Shown here piece by piece: positions 13,757 through 18,913 of a stretch of DNA of 64,000 bases. A model generated the notes under the pieces. The model had not been told where the DNA came from and made no database searches. It was given only the letters and a program-made list of their open reading frames with translations. This DNA is from an uncultured Clostridia bacterium (lineage in GTDB: Bacteria > Bacillota > Clostridia > Christensenellales > CAG-917), in contig CALVQW010000003.1 of assembly GCA_944358385.1 (NCBI GenBank), forward strand, positions 62,001 to 126,000, written 5' to 3'. Position 1 is the first letter of the stretch, and every line of letters begins with the position of its first letter. The translations under genes and the position numbers were made by a program.

Positions 13757-13800
13757 AAACCCCCGTCTCGTGACGGGGGCTTTGACAAAGCAGGTCGCCG
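13757..13800. repeat. Partial hairpin element
   Basis: A short hairpin (CCCCGTC-TCGT-GACGGGG) is followed by the 24-base string GCTTTGACAAAGCAGG... that is identical to the right half of the element at 16795-16922. The matching left arm is missing, so this is read as a fragment of the same element. Confidence 0.5.
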
Positions 13801-13817
13801 AACCACCCATTCAATGC

Positions 13818-13941
13818 CCGAGGGCGATATTTGGATGCAGAATGCGAAAGCGCTCTTGTCGGGAGGCGGAGCGTACAGAGACGTACGTGAGCATCCACGA
13901 CAAGGGCGCTGACAAAGTTCTGCGCCAAATAGCGCCCTCGG
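13818..13941. repeat. Structured hairpin element B, after the aminotransferase operon
   Basis: A 124-base nested hairpin starts about 20 bases beyond the aminotransferase stop. The outer stem pairs 13818-13834 with 13925-13941 (17 bp, one mismatch). An inner 13-bp stem pairs AGCGCTCTTGTCG with CGACAAGGGCGCT through one G-U pair. The apex carries AGCGTAC..CGTACGTGA. The fold is the same as that of the element at 16795-16922, although both stems differ in sequence. Confidence 0.75.
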
Positions 13942-13959
13942 TTCCGTTAAAAGGAACGG

Positions 13960-15249
13960 TTACTTGATGTAATTAGCATCCGGGTGATTCGCGCGCACGA
14001 TCTTATACGCCTCATCCGCGACTTCCCAGGTGTACTGCATATCTTCGTCGGAGAGGGCGTAGTTGATGAAGTGGTTGTGGTGCGAGGTGAAGAACACGCC
14101 GCGCTTGACGCACTCCGTCACCCACTCCTGATGCAGGATGGTGGAGGGGAAGTCGTTGCCGAGACGCAGGTAGAACATGGCGGGTTCGCCCGTCACGCGG
14201 AGATCGAAACCGTTGTCGCGCGCGACTTCTTTGAGTCCTTCGGTGAGCTTGATGCCCTTCTTGGCATTCTCCTCGACGGCGTGGATGGCTTTCGCCTTCC
14301 TGAGGGTGGCGACGCCTGCCGCGAGCGGAACAGCGGAGAGCCAATAGCTGCCGGTGTACGCGATGTCGGCGGTGGCGTTCTTGAGCTTCTCTTTGCCGCA
14401 GATGGCGGACATGTTGTAGCCGTTTGCGATGGCTTTGCAGAAGCAGGAGAGATCCGCCTCGATGCCGTAGTGGTAGTCACTGCCCTTCTCGTCGATGCGG
14501 AAGCCGGCGCGGACGTCGTCGAAGATGAGGACGATGCCGTTGTCGTCGCAGAGCTTGCGCATCTTCTGCCAATAGCCCTCGGGAGGCAGCTGGTTGTCCA
14601 CGAAAGTGGGATGATAGTAAGGCGTGGCGATGAGTCCCGCGATCTGACCGGGATACTTCTTGATGAGTTTCTCGAACTGATCGGGAGCGTTCCAATCGAT
14701 GTAGAGGTTGTTGGCGAGGTCCTCTTCGGTGACGCCGGAGTAGCCGAGTTTCTGCATCCAGGGAGCGACGCCGTGATAGTAGCCGCTGACGAGGACGATC
14801 TTCTTGCGGTTGGTGTAAGCACGCGCGATCATGACCGCGAACGCCGTCATATCACCGCCGTTCTTGCCGAAGAACGCCCAATCCGCCATGTTGATGGTGT
14901 TGACCATCTCTTCCGCCATCTCCACCATGGACTCCGCGATGAGGGTGGTGCAGTTGCCCTTCTTGAGCTGCTCGATCGCCGCCGCGTCGACGTCGGGATC
15001 GTTGTAGCCGAGAAAGTTGGGACCGTAGGCGCACATATAGTCGATGTAGCGGTTGCCGTTGAGGTCCCAGATGTATGTGCCCTGCGCGCGGGACATGAAA
15101 AGCGGATAGGCACTGACGGGGATCATGCAGCCTTCGGAGGGGCCGAGGTGACCGTAGATGCCCGCGGGGACGAGGCTCAGGGCTTTCTTGAAGAGAGCCT
15201 GACCTTTGGAAACGTCATATACCTGTTTGGGTTCGTATTGCAATTTCAT
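13960..15249 (-). CDS. Class III PLP aminotransferase (glutamate-1-semialdehyde aminomutase-like)
   Basis: 429 residues with a strong site AAGGAGG before ATG 15249. Class III features include the substrate-domain start VSAYPLFMSRAQGTYIWDLN, the PLP-ring Asp in IFDDVRAGFR and the PLP Lys in CFCKAIANGYNMSAI. Closest by pattern is the GSA aminomutase subgroup, but true HemL keeps GGVNSPVR-type motifs that are absent, and the classical DEV motif is DDV here. A sugar, beta-amino-acid or similar transaminase is more likely than haem synthesis. It is co-directional with and 22 bases after the SCP2-like gene; the split transketolase genes lie further upstream. A pathway linking these is possible but not shown. 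Confidence 0.82.
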   Translation of the reverse strand: MKLQYEPKQVYDVSKGQALFKKALSLVPAGIYGHLGPSEGCMIPVSAYPLFMSRAQGTYIWDLNGNRYIDYMCAYGPNFLGYNDPDVDAAAIEQLKKGNCTTLIAESMVEMAEEMVNTINMADWAFFGKNGGDMTAFAVMIARAYTNRKKIVLVSGYYHGVAPWMQKLGYSGVTEEDLANNLYIDWNAPDQFEKLIKKYPGQIAGLIATPYYHPTFVDNQLPPEGYWQKMRKLCDDNGIVLIFDDVRAGFRIDEKGSDYHYGIEADLSCFCKAIANGYNMSAICGKEKLKNATADIAYTGSYWLSAVPLAAGVATLRKAKAIHAVEENAKKGIKLTEGLKEVARDNGFDLRVTGEPAMFYLRLGNDFPSTILHQEWVTECVKRGVFFTSHHNHFINYALSDEDMQYTWEVADEAYKIVRANHPDANYIK

Positions 15250-15271
15250 AACTTAATTCCTCCTTATCCGA

Positions 15272-16066
15272 TTAGCCGAGATAGTAGTTGACCTGGGTGA
15301 GCAGTTTCGCCATCTGTTCGAGCATCTCGACGTAACCGCTGATCTGGAACTGTCCCGTGCCCATGCCGGTGAAGCTGGAGGACTTGCCGTTCAGAAGATC
15401 GTGCGCGAACTGCAGATCGCCGAAGATCATCGTGGCGCGGGGATCCTTGACCTTGCCTTTGTTAGTGACGAAGTGATGATTCTTGATCGTGATGTTCACC
15501 GCAAGATCGGTGCCGCCCACGGCACACGCGATGACGCCGTCGGGCATGCGCCTTGCGATCGCCTTGCCCGTGAAGTCGCTGTTGGCGATCTCGCTCATGG
15601 CATAGAAAGCGGTGTAGGCGGTGAGGATGGTGTTCGTCTCAAAGTAAGCGGGATCTTTGAGCAGCTCTTCCTTCTCTTCAGGCTTGGGCTGGAGATAATG
15701 GCTCAGTCTGTCCGCAAGTTTGGTGAAAGTGTTGAGCAGGAAACTCACCTTGAACACGTTGTAGAAGATGGGGATGACCATCTTGGGCTTGCCCGTCTTG
15801 GGATCGGTGGGCGGCGCGATGAGGTTGTTGAAGTGTTCGGGAGAGGTGAAATAGAGTTTGAGAGCAGACTTGCCCTTCCCTCTCGTGAACTTGCACTTGC
15901 CGTCCTTGAAGGTCAGCACCGCGGAGCCGACTTCGGGCACATTGAATTCCACGCCGAGATCGACGCCTTTGATGAGATCCGCCGAAACGGGATCCATAGT
16001 GCAAAGATCCTCGATGTTGCGGAGCACCGCGAACAGGTTTATCTTTGCTCTTGTGACATTGTCCAT
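15272..16066 (-). CDS. Conserved protein, SCP2-like fold suspected
   Basis: 264 residues after a perfect AAAGGAGGAATT site. No catalytic motif is recognised. The N-terminal half (VDLGVEFNVPEVGSAVLTF, then GKGKSALKLYFTSPEHFNNL) and the C-terminal half (GGTDLAVNITIKNHHFV, then GDLQFAHDLLNGKSS) resemble two beta-helix repeats of the sterol-carrier-protein-2 type, in which a short sheet is followed by an amphipathic helix. This would suggest binding of a hydrophobic ligand in the cytosol. It is the first gene of an operon with the aminotransferase and has its own strong promoter. Function unknown. Confidence 0.6.
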   Translation of the reverse strand: MDNVTRAKINLFAVLRNIEDLCTMDPVSADLIKGVDLGVEFNVPEVGSAVLTFKDGKCKFTRGKGKSALKLYFTSPEHFNNLIAPPTDPKTGKPKMVIPIFYNVFKVSFLLNTFTKLADRLSHYLQPKPEEKEELLKDPAYFETNTILTAYTAFYAMSEIANSDFTGKAIARRMPDGVIACAVGGTDLAVNITIKNHHFVTNKGKVKDPRATMIFGDLQFAHDLLNGKSSSFTGMGTGQFQISGYVEMLEQMAKLLTQVNYYLG

Positions 16067-16151
16067 AATTCCTCCTTTACCGCAGCGCGAAGGAAAAAAG
16101 CTCGCTCTCCCCCTCCGGAACCGCTTTATGATAGACTTGTTCTAAGTTATA

Positions 16152-16180
16152 TAATACTTTACTAACATTTGAGTGTCAAT
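16152..16180 (-). promoter_or_regulatory. Sigma-A promoter for the SCP2-like/aminotransferase operon
   Basis: On the minus strand TTGACA (16175-16180) and TATTAT (16152-16157) are spaced 17 bases apart, about 85 bases before the start codon. Confidence 0.8.
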
Positions 16181-16239
16181 ACCAAATCCGAAAATAGTTT
16201 AATTGTTAAAGATAGAGCGTTAGGAAAGTGTTCGGCATG

Positions 16240-16410
16240 CTCAAAGACGCTCACTCAAAGTGTGCGTCGTACTCGGAGAGTATAAAACGGGCTGCCGTCC
16301 TCTGACACGGGAGTGTTGTTGCCCCCCCTCCTGCGGGTGCAAGGGTTTCGTCGTGCTCGGGGACGCTTCGAATAAGTGAGCGTGACAAGTGCGTCCCGCC
16401 CACCCGCCCT
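16240..16410 (-). repeat. Dispersed intergenic repeat family, copy 2 (partial)
   Basis: Strings such as TACTCGGAGAGT, AAACGGGCTG and GTCCTCTGACA are shared with the region at 27.07-27.13 kb. Only part of the module set is present. No gene is visible. Confidence 0.55.
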
Positions 16411-16413
16411 ATG

Positions 16414-16458
16414 GCGGCATCTGCGAGGATATTCTCCTCGCGGATGCCGCACTTTTAT
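16414..16458 (+). terminator. Terminator-like hairpin
   Basis: GCGGCATC and GATGCCGC enclose an inner GCGAGGA/TCCTCGC stem, followed on the plus strand by ACTTTTATT. No plus-strand gene lies just upstream, so it may end transcription across the repeat copy. Confidence 0.5.
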
Positions 16459-16510
16459 TGACATTCTTGACATGTTCTCGTTTTGTCAAGGAACAGCGCC
16501 GAAAAATTTC

Positions 16511-16670
16511 GCGGGCAACGCCCGCTAAAATTTTCGCGCCCTTGACAACAACGGAAAACAGTATAATAAACACACGCGCGGAGCGGTCTCCCGCCCCGCG
16601 CCTTAGTTGCTATCTAACCCGCCGAACACCGTTCGGCGGACTTTATTTTCCCCGCCGCCACTCGGCGGGG
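16511..16670. terminator. Series of three strong hairpins in a gene-free gap
   Basis: Three inverted repeats follow in order: GCGGGC-AAC-GCCCGC (16511-16525), CCGCCGAAC-ACC-GTTCGGCGG followed by CTTTATTTT (16619-16639 plus tail), and CCCCGCCG-CCACT-CGGCGGGG (16650-16670). The second has the form of a rho-independent terminator on the plus strand. No gene is visible between them. Confidence 0.55.
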
Positions 16671-16744
16671 CATTTAACAATTGGGGACGGGGCAAATTTG
16701 TTAAATTTTCTTAACAATTTTGCCCCGTCCCCAATTGTTAAATG
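16671..16744. repeat. 74-bp near-perfect palindrome
   Basis: The arms CATTTAACAATTGGGGACGG... pair with their exact complement ending at 16744, about 26 bp each side. An inner TTGTTAA/TTAACAA stem closes on a short AT loop. Nothing suggests coding. It resembles a miniature inverted-repeat element or an extended terminator. Confidence 0.8.
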
Positions 16745-16794
16745 CTGCGCTGCGAAGCTCTACGCCGCCATCCGGAAAGACAATCTGTTCGGAG

Positions 16795-16922
16795 ACCGAC
16801 GCCTTCATTCGGATGAGATGCGCGAAAAAGCCCCTTCCACAAAAGGGAGCGTACTTAGTCGTACGTGACCGCATTGCGGAACGGGGCTTTGACAAAGCAG
16901 GTCGCCGAATGAAGGCGTCGGT
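16795..16922. repeat. Structured hairpin element A, after the transketolase operon
   Basis: A 128-base nested hairpin starts about 25 bases beyond the transketolase stop. The outer stem is a perfect 18 bp (16795-16812 with 16905-16922). An inner stem pairs AAAGCCCC-TTCC with GGAA-C-GGGGCTTT. The apex is AGCGTACTTAGTCGTACGTGA, and the 3' side carries TGACAAAGCAGGTCGCC. The same layout with different stem sequences is found at 13818-13941. Confidence 0.78.
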
Positions 16923-16948: not shown

Positions 16949-17890
16949 TTATTTCTTGCGTGCCACCGCGCGCTTGGCGGCAGCAACGATATCCTCCACC
17001 GTCAGGTGGAACTTCTCGCTGAGATACGCCTGCTTGCCCACTTCGCCGAAGGAGTCGACGACGCCGATCATCTCGACGGGTGCGGGGCATTTCTCGACAA
17101 CGACCTCCGCGACCGCGCTGCCCAGACCGCCGAAGGTGCTGTGGTTCTCACAAGTGACCAGCGCGCCCGTCTCTTTGACGGCGTCCGCGATGGCGTCGGT
17201 ATCGATGGGCTTCCAGGTGTGCATATTGACGACTGCGGCGGAGATGCCCTCCTCTTTGAGTGCGTCCGCTGCCTTCAACGCTCTGTCCACCATGATGCCG
17301 GAGGCGATGAGGGTGACATCTTTGCCCGCACGGATCTTGACCGCTTTGCCGAGCTTGAAATCCAGAGAGTCGTCAAAGATCTTCTCCGTCTTTTTGCGGA
17401 ACATGCGGATGTAGACCGCGCCGGGATAATCGATGATCTGAGGCAGAGCCTTTTGGAGCATGGTGGCATCCGTAGGCTCGAAGCACACCATCTTGGGGAT
17501 GGCGCGCATGAGCGTCATATCCTCGAAGGGCATATGCGTGCCGCCGTTGGCTTCCGCCATGACGCCGGGATCGGAACCCACCATCTTGACATTGAGCTTG
17601 CTGTACGCGACGGAGATGAAGATCTGGTCATAGCACCTTCTGGTCGCAAAGGGGGCGAAACTGAAGGTGAAGGGGATCTTGCCGAAAGCCGCCATACCCG
17701 CGGCGACGCCGATCATGTTGGACTCGGCGATGCCGACATTGATGAATCTTTCAGGATAGGCTTCGAGGAAACATTTGGTGGCATGACAGCTCATGAGGTC
17801 GGCGTCCAGCACGACGATGCGGTCGTCATTCTTTGCCGCCTCGACGAGTCCCGCTGCCATTACTTGTCTGATTTCTTTTTCGTCGGTCAT
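16949..17890 (-). CDS. Transketolase, C-terminal subunit
   Basis: 313 residues holding the pyrimidine-binding and C-terminal domains of transketolase. The pyrimidine-domain signatures INVGIAESNMIGVAAGMA (with the catalytic Glu) and FTFSFAPFATRRCYDQI are clear, and the C-terminal domain begins near residue 185. It pairs with the N-terminal subunit upstream: TAATG lets the stop of one gene overlap the start of the other. Two-gene transketolases are common in Clostridia and archaea and act in the pentose phosphate pathway or in related C2-unit transfer. A role in a special sugar pathway is possible. Confidence 0.92.
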   Translation of the reverse strand: MTDEKEIRQVMAAGLVEAAKNDDRIVVLDADLMSCHATKCFLEAYPERFINVGIAESNMIGVAAGMAAFGKIPFTFSFAPFATRRCYDQIFISVAYSKLNVKMVGSDPGVMAEANGGTHMPFEDMTLMRAIPKMVCFEPTDATMLQKALPQIIDYPGAVYIRMFRKKTEKIFDDSLDFKLGKAVKIRAGKDVTLIASGIMVDRALKAADALKEEGISAAVVNMHTWKPIDTDAIADAVKETGALVTCENHSTFGGLGSAVAEVVVEKCPAPVEMIGVVDSFGEVGKQAYLSEKFHLTVEDIVAAAKRAVARKK

Positions 17891-18708
17891 TATTCATACC
17901 TCCCCGTTTCCTTTCTCCACACCTCTTCGGGCACGGACATACTGTGGCAGTTGGCGACGCCTTCGGTGAAGGAGGCACCCTTGCCCTTGACGGTGCGCAG
18001 GACGATCATGGAGGGCTTGTCGTGCTGAGCCTTCGCCGCGTCGATGGCGTCGGAGATGGCTGCAAGGTCGTGTCCGTCCACGTCCTGCACGAAGAAATTG
18101 AATGCCTTCCACTTGTCCACGATGGGTTCAAGCCCGTTGATGTTCTCCACCGGACCGTCCAGCTGCATACGGTTGCTGTCGAGCAGCACGATGAGATTGT
18201 CGAGTTTCTTGGAACCAGCGAGCATGCTCGCCTCCCATATCTGCCCTTCCTGGCTCTCGCCGTCGCCGATGAAACAATAGATCGTCGCGGGATTGCGGTC
18301 GATCTTGGCGGCAAGTGCCATGCCGACAGCCGCGGACAGTCCCTGTCCGAGCGAACCTGCCGTCATATCGATGCCGGGCGTCTTGTTCATGTCGCAGTGA
18401 GAGGGAAGATTGGTGCCGTTCTTGTTGAGCGTGGTCATCCACTCCTTGGGGAAGTAGCCGAGGTCGCACAACACGGCGTACATGGCGGGACCTGCATGAC
18501 CTTTGGACATGATCACGCGGTCGCGGTCCTGCTTTTTGGGATCCTTGGGATCGACATTTGCTTTGTCGTAATAAATGACTGTCAGAGCGTCCATGACGGA
18601 CATGGTGCCGCCGATGTGACCGACGCCGAAGTGACCGATGATCTCGATGGCGTCGTCACGGAGCTTGCGCGCTTTGGCAGTCAAAAAATCGAGTTTTTCT
18701 TTCTGCAT
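17890..18708 (-). CDS. Transketolase, N-terminal subunit
   Basis: 272 residues from ATG 18708, chosen because AAGGAGG lies 8 bases upstream. It carries the thiamine-diphosphate-binding domain: the phosphate-binding region SKGHAGPAMYAVL, TAGSLGQGLSAAVGMA and the GDG...N cofactor motif (FIGDGESQEGQIWEA, then LDSNRMQLDG). Together with the downstream subunit it forms the usual heterotetramer in the cytosol. It is the first gene of the two-gene operon. Confidence 0.92.
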   Translation of the reverse strand: MQKEKLDFLTAKARKLRDDAIEIIGHFGVGHIGGTMSVMDALTVIYYDKANVDPKDPKKQDRDRVIMSKGHAGPAMYAVLCDLGYFPKEWMTTLNKNGTNLPSHCDMNKTPGIDMTAGSLGQGLSAAVGMALAAKIDRNPATIYCFIGDGESQEGQIWEASMLAGSKKLDNLIVLLDSNRMQLDGPVENINGLEPIVDKWKAFNFFVQDVDGHDLAAISDAIDAAKAQHDKPSMIVLRTVKGKGASFTEGVANCHSMSVPEEVWRKETGRYE

Positions 18709-18913
18709 GGCATTCCTCCTTATCAAGCCGAGTATATCACCTCAAAATCCGTTTTTCAATACCCGTCGCAAAAAAAGTTCATAAATTAACGATTTCGCAT
18801 AATTTCTCCTCCCCCGCACAAACTTCTCCGAAAGGCGGGCGCGCACGCACAATAAAACGAGAACGCGCGCGCACGCACGCATCGTCGGCGCACCCGACGA
18901 AAAGGAGTAAGAT

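Follow-up and report, generated by a model that had tools for sequence, protein, structure and literature searches.

Modular nested-hairpin repeats at gene 3' ends, mostly with the stop codon in the stem base

Introduction

Why should two nearby genes of a bacterium be followed by long hairpins that share the same layout but differ in the sequence of their stems? This question is raised by a window of 64,000 nucleotides (nt) from an uncultured Clostridia bacterium (G000:C3:62001-126000, part of a 1.77 Mb draft genome), in which two nested-hairpin elements lie on the plus strand, at 13818-13941 (copy 1) and 16795-16922 (copy 2), 3' of a minus-strand aminotransferase gene and of a minus-strand transketolase C-terminal gene, respectively. 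A sequence-only reading of this window took their differing but pairing stems as the mark of a selected RNA or of structure-dependent mobile DNA.

Here we describe these elements as members of a repeat family found in several families of a bacterial order. They lie downstream of genes in a single orientation, and in most cases the stop codon of the gene forms the base of the outer stem. Closely related species carry different modules at the same sites, both arms having been replaced together, and the elements may belong to the same kind of non-autonomous dispersed repeats as the pneumococcal BOX and SPRITE elements, a reading to which we give a probability of about one half.

Results

Size and spread of the family

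A covariance model built from nine copies yielded 79 matches in the genome of the window, corresponding to about 65 distinct copies of approximately 125 bases after removal of the opposite-strand matches to the same hairpins. Nearly all of them have intact stems; a lack of further intact copies had been named beforehand as the outcome that would speak against the sequence-only reading. Within the genus, the number of copies per genome is 0 in G003, 1 in G007, 15 in G001 and 69 in G002 and G009. Two other genera of the same family, g4 and g8, have up to 59 and 22 copies, and 15-69 copies are present in many relatives. Matches in other families of the order are weaker yet full-length, and reading the sequences confirmed that they have the same layout. 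According to lysyl-tRNA synthetase, the relatives include Candidatus Limadaptatus stercoravium and L. stercoripullorum, and we take the order that contains them to be Christensenellales.

At gathering score, Rfam 15 recognised two tRNAs and no element in the window, and no Rfam match was obtained for seven loci from four bacterial families. Identity with an Rfam family was rejected, as permissive E-values added nothing but microRNA-like chance hits, most of them to another palindrome. The elements are thus a repeat family of the order without an Rfam match. A search of viral contigs for the apex pattern of the elements found none, and viral carriers were therefore discarded as vehicles.

Position of the stop codon

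Genes were called with a codon-usage model trained on eight genes of the window. Among the 118 copies that have a gene called on the relevant side, 117 are downstream of that adjacent gene, in the same orientation. Of about 91 gene-proximal copies, 69 have an outer stem that opens, on the gene strand, with the three bases of the stop codon, mostly after a C. In 13 more, the stop codon stands immediately before the stem. In nine others, including both window copies, it is located 15-27 nt before the stem as delimited by the model. The rest occupy the outer positions of tandem arrays, typically some 130 nt further out. The strongest feature of the family, the stop codon inside the stem base, was thus not visible from the two copies in the window, which are of a minority type.

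All three stop codons are used. Copies in the family of the window genome begin with TGA or TAA, those of genera g4 and g8 mostly with TAA, and those of family f24 with TAG or TAA; one copy in family f5 begins with TGA. Pairing extends slightly into the genes: the last two coding bases, -1 and -2, have a pairing partner in the distal flank in 64/65 and 41/65 copies, compared with 52.9 and 18.5 when the flanks are re-dealt among copies, and the excess stops beyond these two bases. The host genes include gdhA and proS, and others look like the genes of ribosomal proteins S9 and S18.

At gdhA and proS, the same protein C-terminus is found with or without an element, which begins at the stop codon. 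In relatives devoid of the element, this tail is mostly followed by a short leader and then by an ordinary terminator, which is not recognisable in the element-bearing genomes. Element-free relatives compared at other genes likewise have an ordinary terminator in its place. The gdhA element of G005 is of the TAA type, whereas the empty members of the genus have TGA, which indicates that the element brings its own stop codon. Relative to the element-poor genome G007, the length of genes with the stop codon in the stem is unchanged in 9 of 12 cases, and the other three genes are shortened by 1, 2 and about 10 residues. The distance from gdhA to the next conserved sequence is about 1068 nt with the element versus 135 nt without.

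Beyond the elements, the intergenic regions are filled with other repeats and reach several times the length seen in element-free relatives. The region downstream of gdhA in the contig of the window (G000:C3, L272) is a mosaic of further hairpin repeats, such as CGCGCCGC...GCGGCGCG and GTCTCTCTTTCGGAGACG.

Modular make-up and concordance of the arms

The elements are made up of layers, namely an outer stem, a middle part, an inner GC-rich stem and an apex. The outer stem comprises 17-19 bp and frequently has CTGA/TCAG at its ends, and the middle part contains the conserved unpaired motifs GGATG, GCGAAA or AAGGAAA, facing TGACAAAG or TGACGCAG. Outer and inner modules occur in several combinations, and the internal loops are conserved while the stems vary. 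To quantify the concordance of the arms, the 3' arms were re-dealt among copies and Watson-Crick pairing was recomputed. Outer-stem pairing in the window genome is 95% for the real arms and 65% for the re-dealt ones, with similar differences in G002 (98% versus 76%) and in other genera (96% versus 64%); for the inner stem, the values are 91% and 56%. One-sided recombinants are few (L076, L087). As for the paired stem differences pointed out by the sequence-only reading, the arms do pair, but most differences are swaps of whole modules rather than point-by-point compensation.

Another hairpin family, of small size (GGGGTCCCC...GGGGCA), sits inside the apex loop of nested hairpins as a repeat within a repeat; such insertions were found at L088 1143-1318 and in the gdhA and proS 3' regions of G005 (L276, L306).

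In-place replacement between sister species

Thirty copies of the window genome align on their gene side with a G002 copy, 21 of them over at least 250 nt at an identity of at least 85%. At these 21 orthologous sites, the median identity is 91.5% for the flanks versus 71% for the elements. Both the outer and the inner modules are different at 14 of the sites, and the elements are nearly identical at three. At the aminotransferase gene of the window, the two species share 99% protein identity and all of the first 25 flank bases, yet the element is wholly different. The outer module CTGACGGCG has spread in a genome-specific manner, with 17 copies in G002 versus two in the window genome. Stable flanks, swapped elements and genome-biased modules together make up the pattern that would arise if the fixed sites of a genome copied from one another.

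At the aminotransferase gene of G009 (L097), an apparently decayed element was found, in which the outer-arm sequences TGACGCGC...GAGCGCGTCAG persist and the interior is replaced by other hairpins.

Strand preference and terminator features

The inner stem is followed by mostly 3-5 T residues on the gene strand versus 0-3 on the other strand, and a terminator scan predicts a hairpin with an CTTTTTCGCG tail from the sequence. The gene-strand T-runs probably fit a terminator for the upstream gene. Bacteria with uncoupled transcription, such as B. subtilis, typically have terminators located a few nt past the stop codon (reviewed in PMC7858274).

It is nevertheless the plus strand, antisense to the gene, that has the better fold, in 123 of 124 copies when folded as RNA and in 118 of 124 as DNA. 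This advantage comes from two conserved G.T pairs and from tandem G.A pairs, which persist where the apex stem changes, across families, from GCGTAC/GTACGT to GTTTAC/GTAAAT. Apart from the two conserved wobbles, G.T and A.C stem mismatches are about equally numerous, and their comparison, tried as a strand test, says little about the stems. No promoter-like block common to the copies was seen by eye in their diverse 5' flanks, and a scan of one flank found none. The better folding suggests that the plus strand is read as a folded single strand, probably of DNA given that the flanks show no common promoter.

The elements of the window

Both window elements are of the CCGA/TCGG type and fold as nested hairpins, as first proposed, with DNA fold z-scores of -8.6 (copy 1) and -6.8 (copy 2), no shuffled sequence being as stable; they score 138 and 113 bits, respectively, with covariance model R1. 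In copy 1, the sequence gives an outer stem whose 5' arm (13818-13834) faces the 3' arm (13925-13941) over 17 positions with one A.G mismatch, and copy 2 has an outer stem of 17-18 bp without any mismatch. According to the folds, the inner stem and apex form a terminator-like core at 13849-13910 in copy 1 and occupy 16827-16890 in copy 2, where the minus strand is terminator-like and followed by CTTTTTCGCG. The conserved apex reads AGCGTACAGAGACGTACGTGA in copy 1 (13870-13890), with 11 exact matches in the genome, and AGCGTACTTAGTCGTACGTGA in copy 2 (16848-16868), as located by the apex pattern search. The window contains exactly two occurrences of the common apex AGCGTAC..AG.CGTACGTGA, versus 0.05 expected, and likewise two of the common 3'-side motif GGGGCTTTGACAAAGCAGG, versus 0.01 expected.

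The TAA stop codons of the genes served by the elements are on the minus strand, 18 nt from copy 1 (13960-13962) and 26 nt from copy 2 (16949-16951), and orthologues support the open reading frames (13960-15249 and 16949-17890). The description of the elements as lying after operons is reasonable, as each is 3' of a tandem minus-strand gene pair, 13960-15249 with 15272-16066 for copy 1 and 16949-17890 with 17890-18726 for copy 2. The partial copy reported at 13757-13800 (plus strand) is also real: its sequence and fold comprise the inner stem with a plain TCGT loop and the 3' middle module, and the apex and outer stem are missing.

Other repeats surround these elements. A 266-nt repeat at 13480-13745 matches the genome fully or partly at 56 places, with 90-95% identity in at least 24 cases, and has no Rfam match. 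Often located beyond nested hairpins, it might represent a young repeat or an RNA. A 68-nt palindrome at 16676-16743, ACAATTGGGGACGGGGCAAA...TTTGCCCCGTCCCCAATTGT, is also present on both sides of a Y1/RAYT-type gene, at L224 555-604 and 1470-1519; this palindrome and the Y1/RAYT-type transposase likely form a REPIN-RAYT pair.

Discussion

The idea of a selected RNA or of structure-dependent mobile DNA was a fair lead in view of the many copies with paired arms, and it is partly borne out. Paired changes between arms do not by themselves prove selection, as template switching also yields them (PMC8794818). Concordant arms need selection for pairing, arm-to-arm copying, or both. We consider, at even odds, that the elements are BOX/SPRITE-like non-autonomous repeats dispersed at gene 3' ends, which mostly supply the stop codon and evolve by in-place copying and arm homogenisation. 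On the gene strand, the inner hairpin, consisting of an A-tract, a GC stem and a T-tract, would be the transcription terminator of the gene. An element that carries its own stop codon and terminator would be tolerated, or favoured, only at gene ends. New variants would arrive by copying from other copies, through gene conversion or transposition, and mismatched arms would be made to match through template switching inside the hairpin before being retained by selection. Template switching during replication, which creates and repairs hairpin arms in one step (PMC8794818), would make one-sided recombinants symmetric and could lengthen stems by 1-2 bp into the gene, as seen. Finally, the plus strand might be recognised as single-stranded DNA by a putative machinery.

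Several observations weigh against this explanation. No mobilising enzyme was identified, Y1 being the only transposase systematically searched for, and the Y1/RAYT transposase was rejected as the mover: the RAYT gene (L224 633-1400) is flanked by GGGGACGGGGC palindromes instead of the nested-hairpin element, and the phylogenetic pattern is wrong, with no Pfam Y1 hit in G020 (59 copies), G016 (22 copies), G060 and G029. No target-site duplication was seen in flanks read by eye, which was not exhaustive, and the ends show inverted rather than direct repeats. A DNA target alone does not explain hits at three kinds of stop codon, and gene-strand T-runs of three make for a weak intrinsic terminator. 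Moreover, arm homogenisation cannot account for everything, as internal loops stay unpaired and conserved; template switching fails to explain such motifs shared across families, which need selection.

It is possible, if doubtful, that the elements are cis-acting structures of mRNA 3' ends, in which the terminating ribosome opens and closes the outer stem through the stop codon in its base, so that transcript release, stability or RNase III cleavage is coupled to the end of translation, the swaps being recombination events filtered by selection for pairing. Such a role would fit the finding that the stem holds a stop codon in different genera and families, be it TGA, TAA or TAG, the codon rather than one sequence being the constant; it would also fit the conserved loops with varying stems and the strong arm concordance. 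However, the gene strand has A.C and T.C mismatches in place of the wobbles and G.A pairs, and its fold is worse by about 8.5 kcal/mol, a polymerase halting after the inner stem would never let the outer stem form in RNA, and beyond the two conserved wobbles the stem mismatches favour G.U on neither strand. The better folding of the plus strand, with G.U wobbles and tandem G.A pairs that survive changes of neighbouring pairs across families, might instead point to structured antisense RNAs, dispersed small RNAs that overlap gene 3' ends. We regard this as improbable, given the diverse 5' flanks without a common promoter-like block (by eye, with one flank scanned) and the lack of an Rfam family.

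The elements might also be passive selfish palindromes devoid of host function, for which gene ends are merely harmless locations and whose arms are concordant as a side effect of template switching during replication. Their rapid turnover between species, the other repeats that crowd the same intergenic regions and the documented occurrence of template switching (PMC8794818) are all in keeping with this. Nevertheless, such palindromes should occupy many intergenic positions in both orientations, at odds with the single orientation of 117/118 copies and the stop codon at the stem base, and their unpaired loops would have been homogenised away rather than conserved across families, which makes this explanation unlikely. 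More speculatively, the elements might be part of a dedicated system linked to the end of translation, in which hairpins are installed at stop codons and a putative enzyme exchanges their nested tips between sites as folded units, the order thereby keeping fast-changing, interchangeable gene-end cassettes that carry stop codons; we put this forward tentatively.

Comparison with known systems helps to place the family. Mitochondrial double-hairpin or palindromic elements are mobile-looking hairpin repeats whose folding is kept; they are organellar, and we know of no tie to stop codons in their case. In the literature on nested or mosaic intergenic hairpins and on repeats tied to stop codons, the only near relatives in kind that we found are BOX/SPRITE and Coxiella miniature inverted-repeat transposable elements (MITEs). 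The BOX elements of Streptococcus pneumoniae are modular, hairpin-forming, dispersed and strain-variable, and 36 genes derive the stop codon at their very 3' end from the repeat, with no clear truncation (PMC3049150). The combination of independent modules in one repeat is found here as well. However, BOX varies in the number of tandem boxB modules, whereas nested layers are exchanged here with both arms, and stop-codon placement is a minority situation in BOX and the rule here; the likeness is in kind only, and we claim no homology. SPRITE, the pneumococcal Rho-independent terminator-like element, is likewise a dispersed terminator-like hairpin just 3' of genes, thought to be co-opted as a terminator, but it consists of an 18 bp duplex with a long U-rich tract, and nested layers and mosaicism are not reported for it (PMC3049150). 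REP/REPIN sequences with RAYT (PMC2817692) are also high-copy, non-autonomous extragenic palindromes; in contrast, the single Y1 transposase of the window genome is flanked by the other palindrome, and element copy number does not follow the transposase. Hairpins made by template switching (PMC8794818) have paired stems made and repaired in one event, as concordant arms require, but this is a mechanism rather than an element family, and it leaves dispersal and stop placement unexplained.

Two further identities were rejected. The outer stem of 17-19 bp provides the terminal inverted repeats of a classical MITE of a DD(E/D) transposon, without the target-site duplication (by eye). The stem bases CTGA/TCAG, CTAA/TTAG or CCGA/TCGG (by eye) are not the core sites RYYYAAC/GTTRRRY of an integron attC. 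Loss of SbcCD as a permissive condition was also discarded, the SbcD pattern being the same with or without elements and hence not discriminating. SbcD above the curated cut-off is absent from 42 of 43 genomes of the family, G062 having one, and this scarcity may make long hairpins tolerable.

The new aspects of this family are its nested two-arm mosaicism, its fast in-place replacement, and the placement of the stop codon as a rule over several families of the order. Paired changes in stems are usually taken to prove selection on RNA. The availability of about twenty sites, compared between sister species, at which whole paired modules have been replaced in place makes the shares of gene conversion, template switching and selection in compensatory change directly measurable. 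Dispersed DNA that supplies ordinary housekeeping genes with their stop codon, and probably with their terminator, would represent an unusually intimate takeover of gene ends on the scale of a bacterial order.

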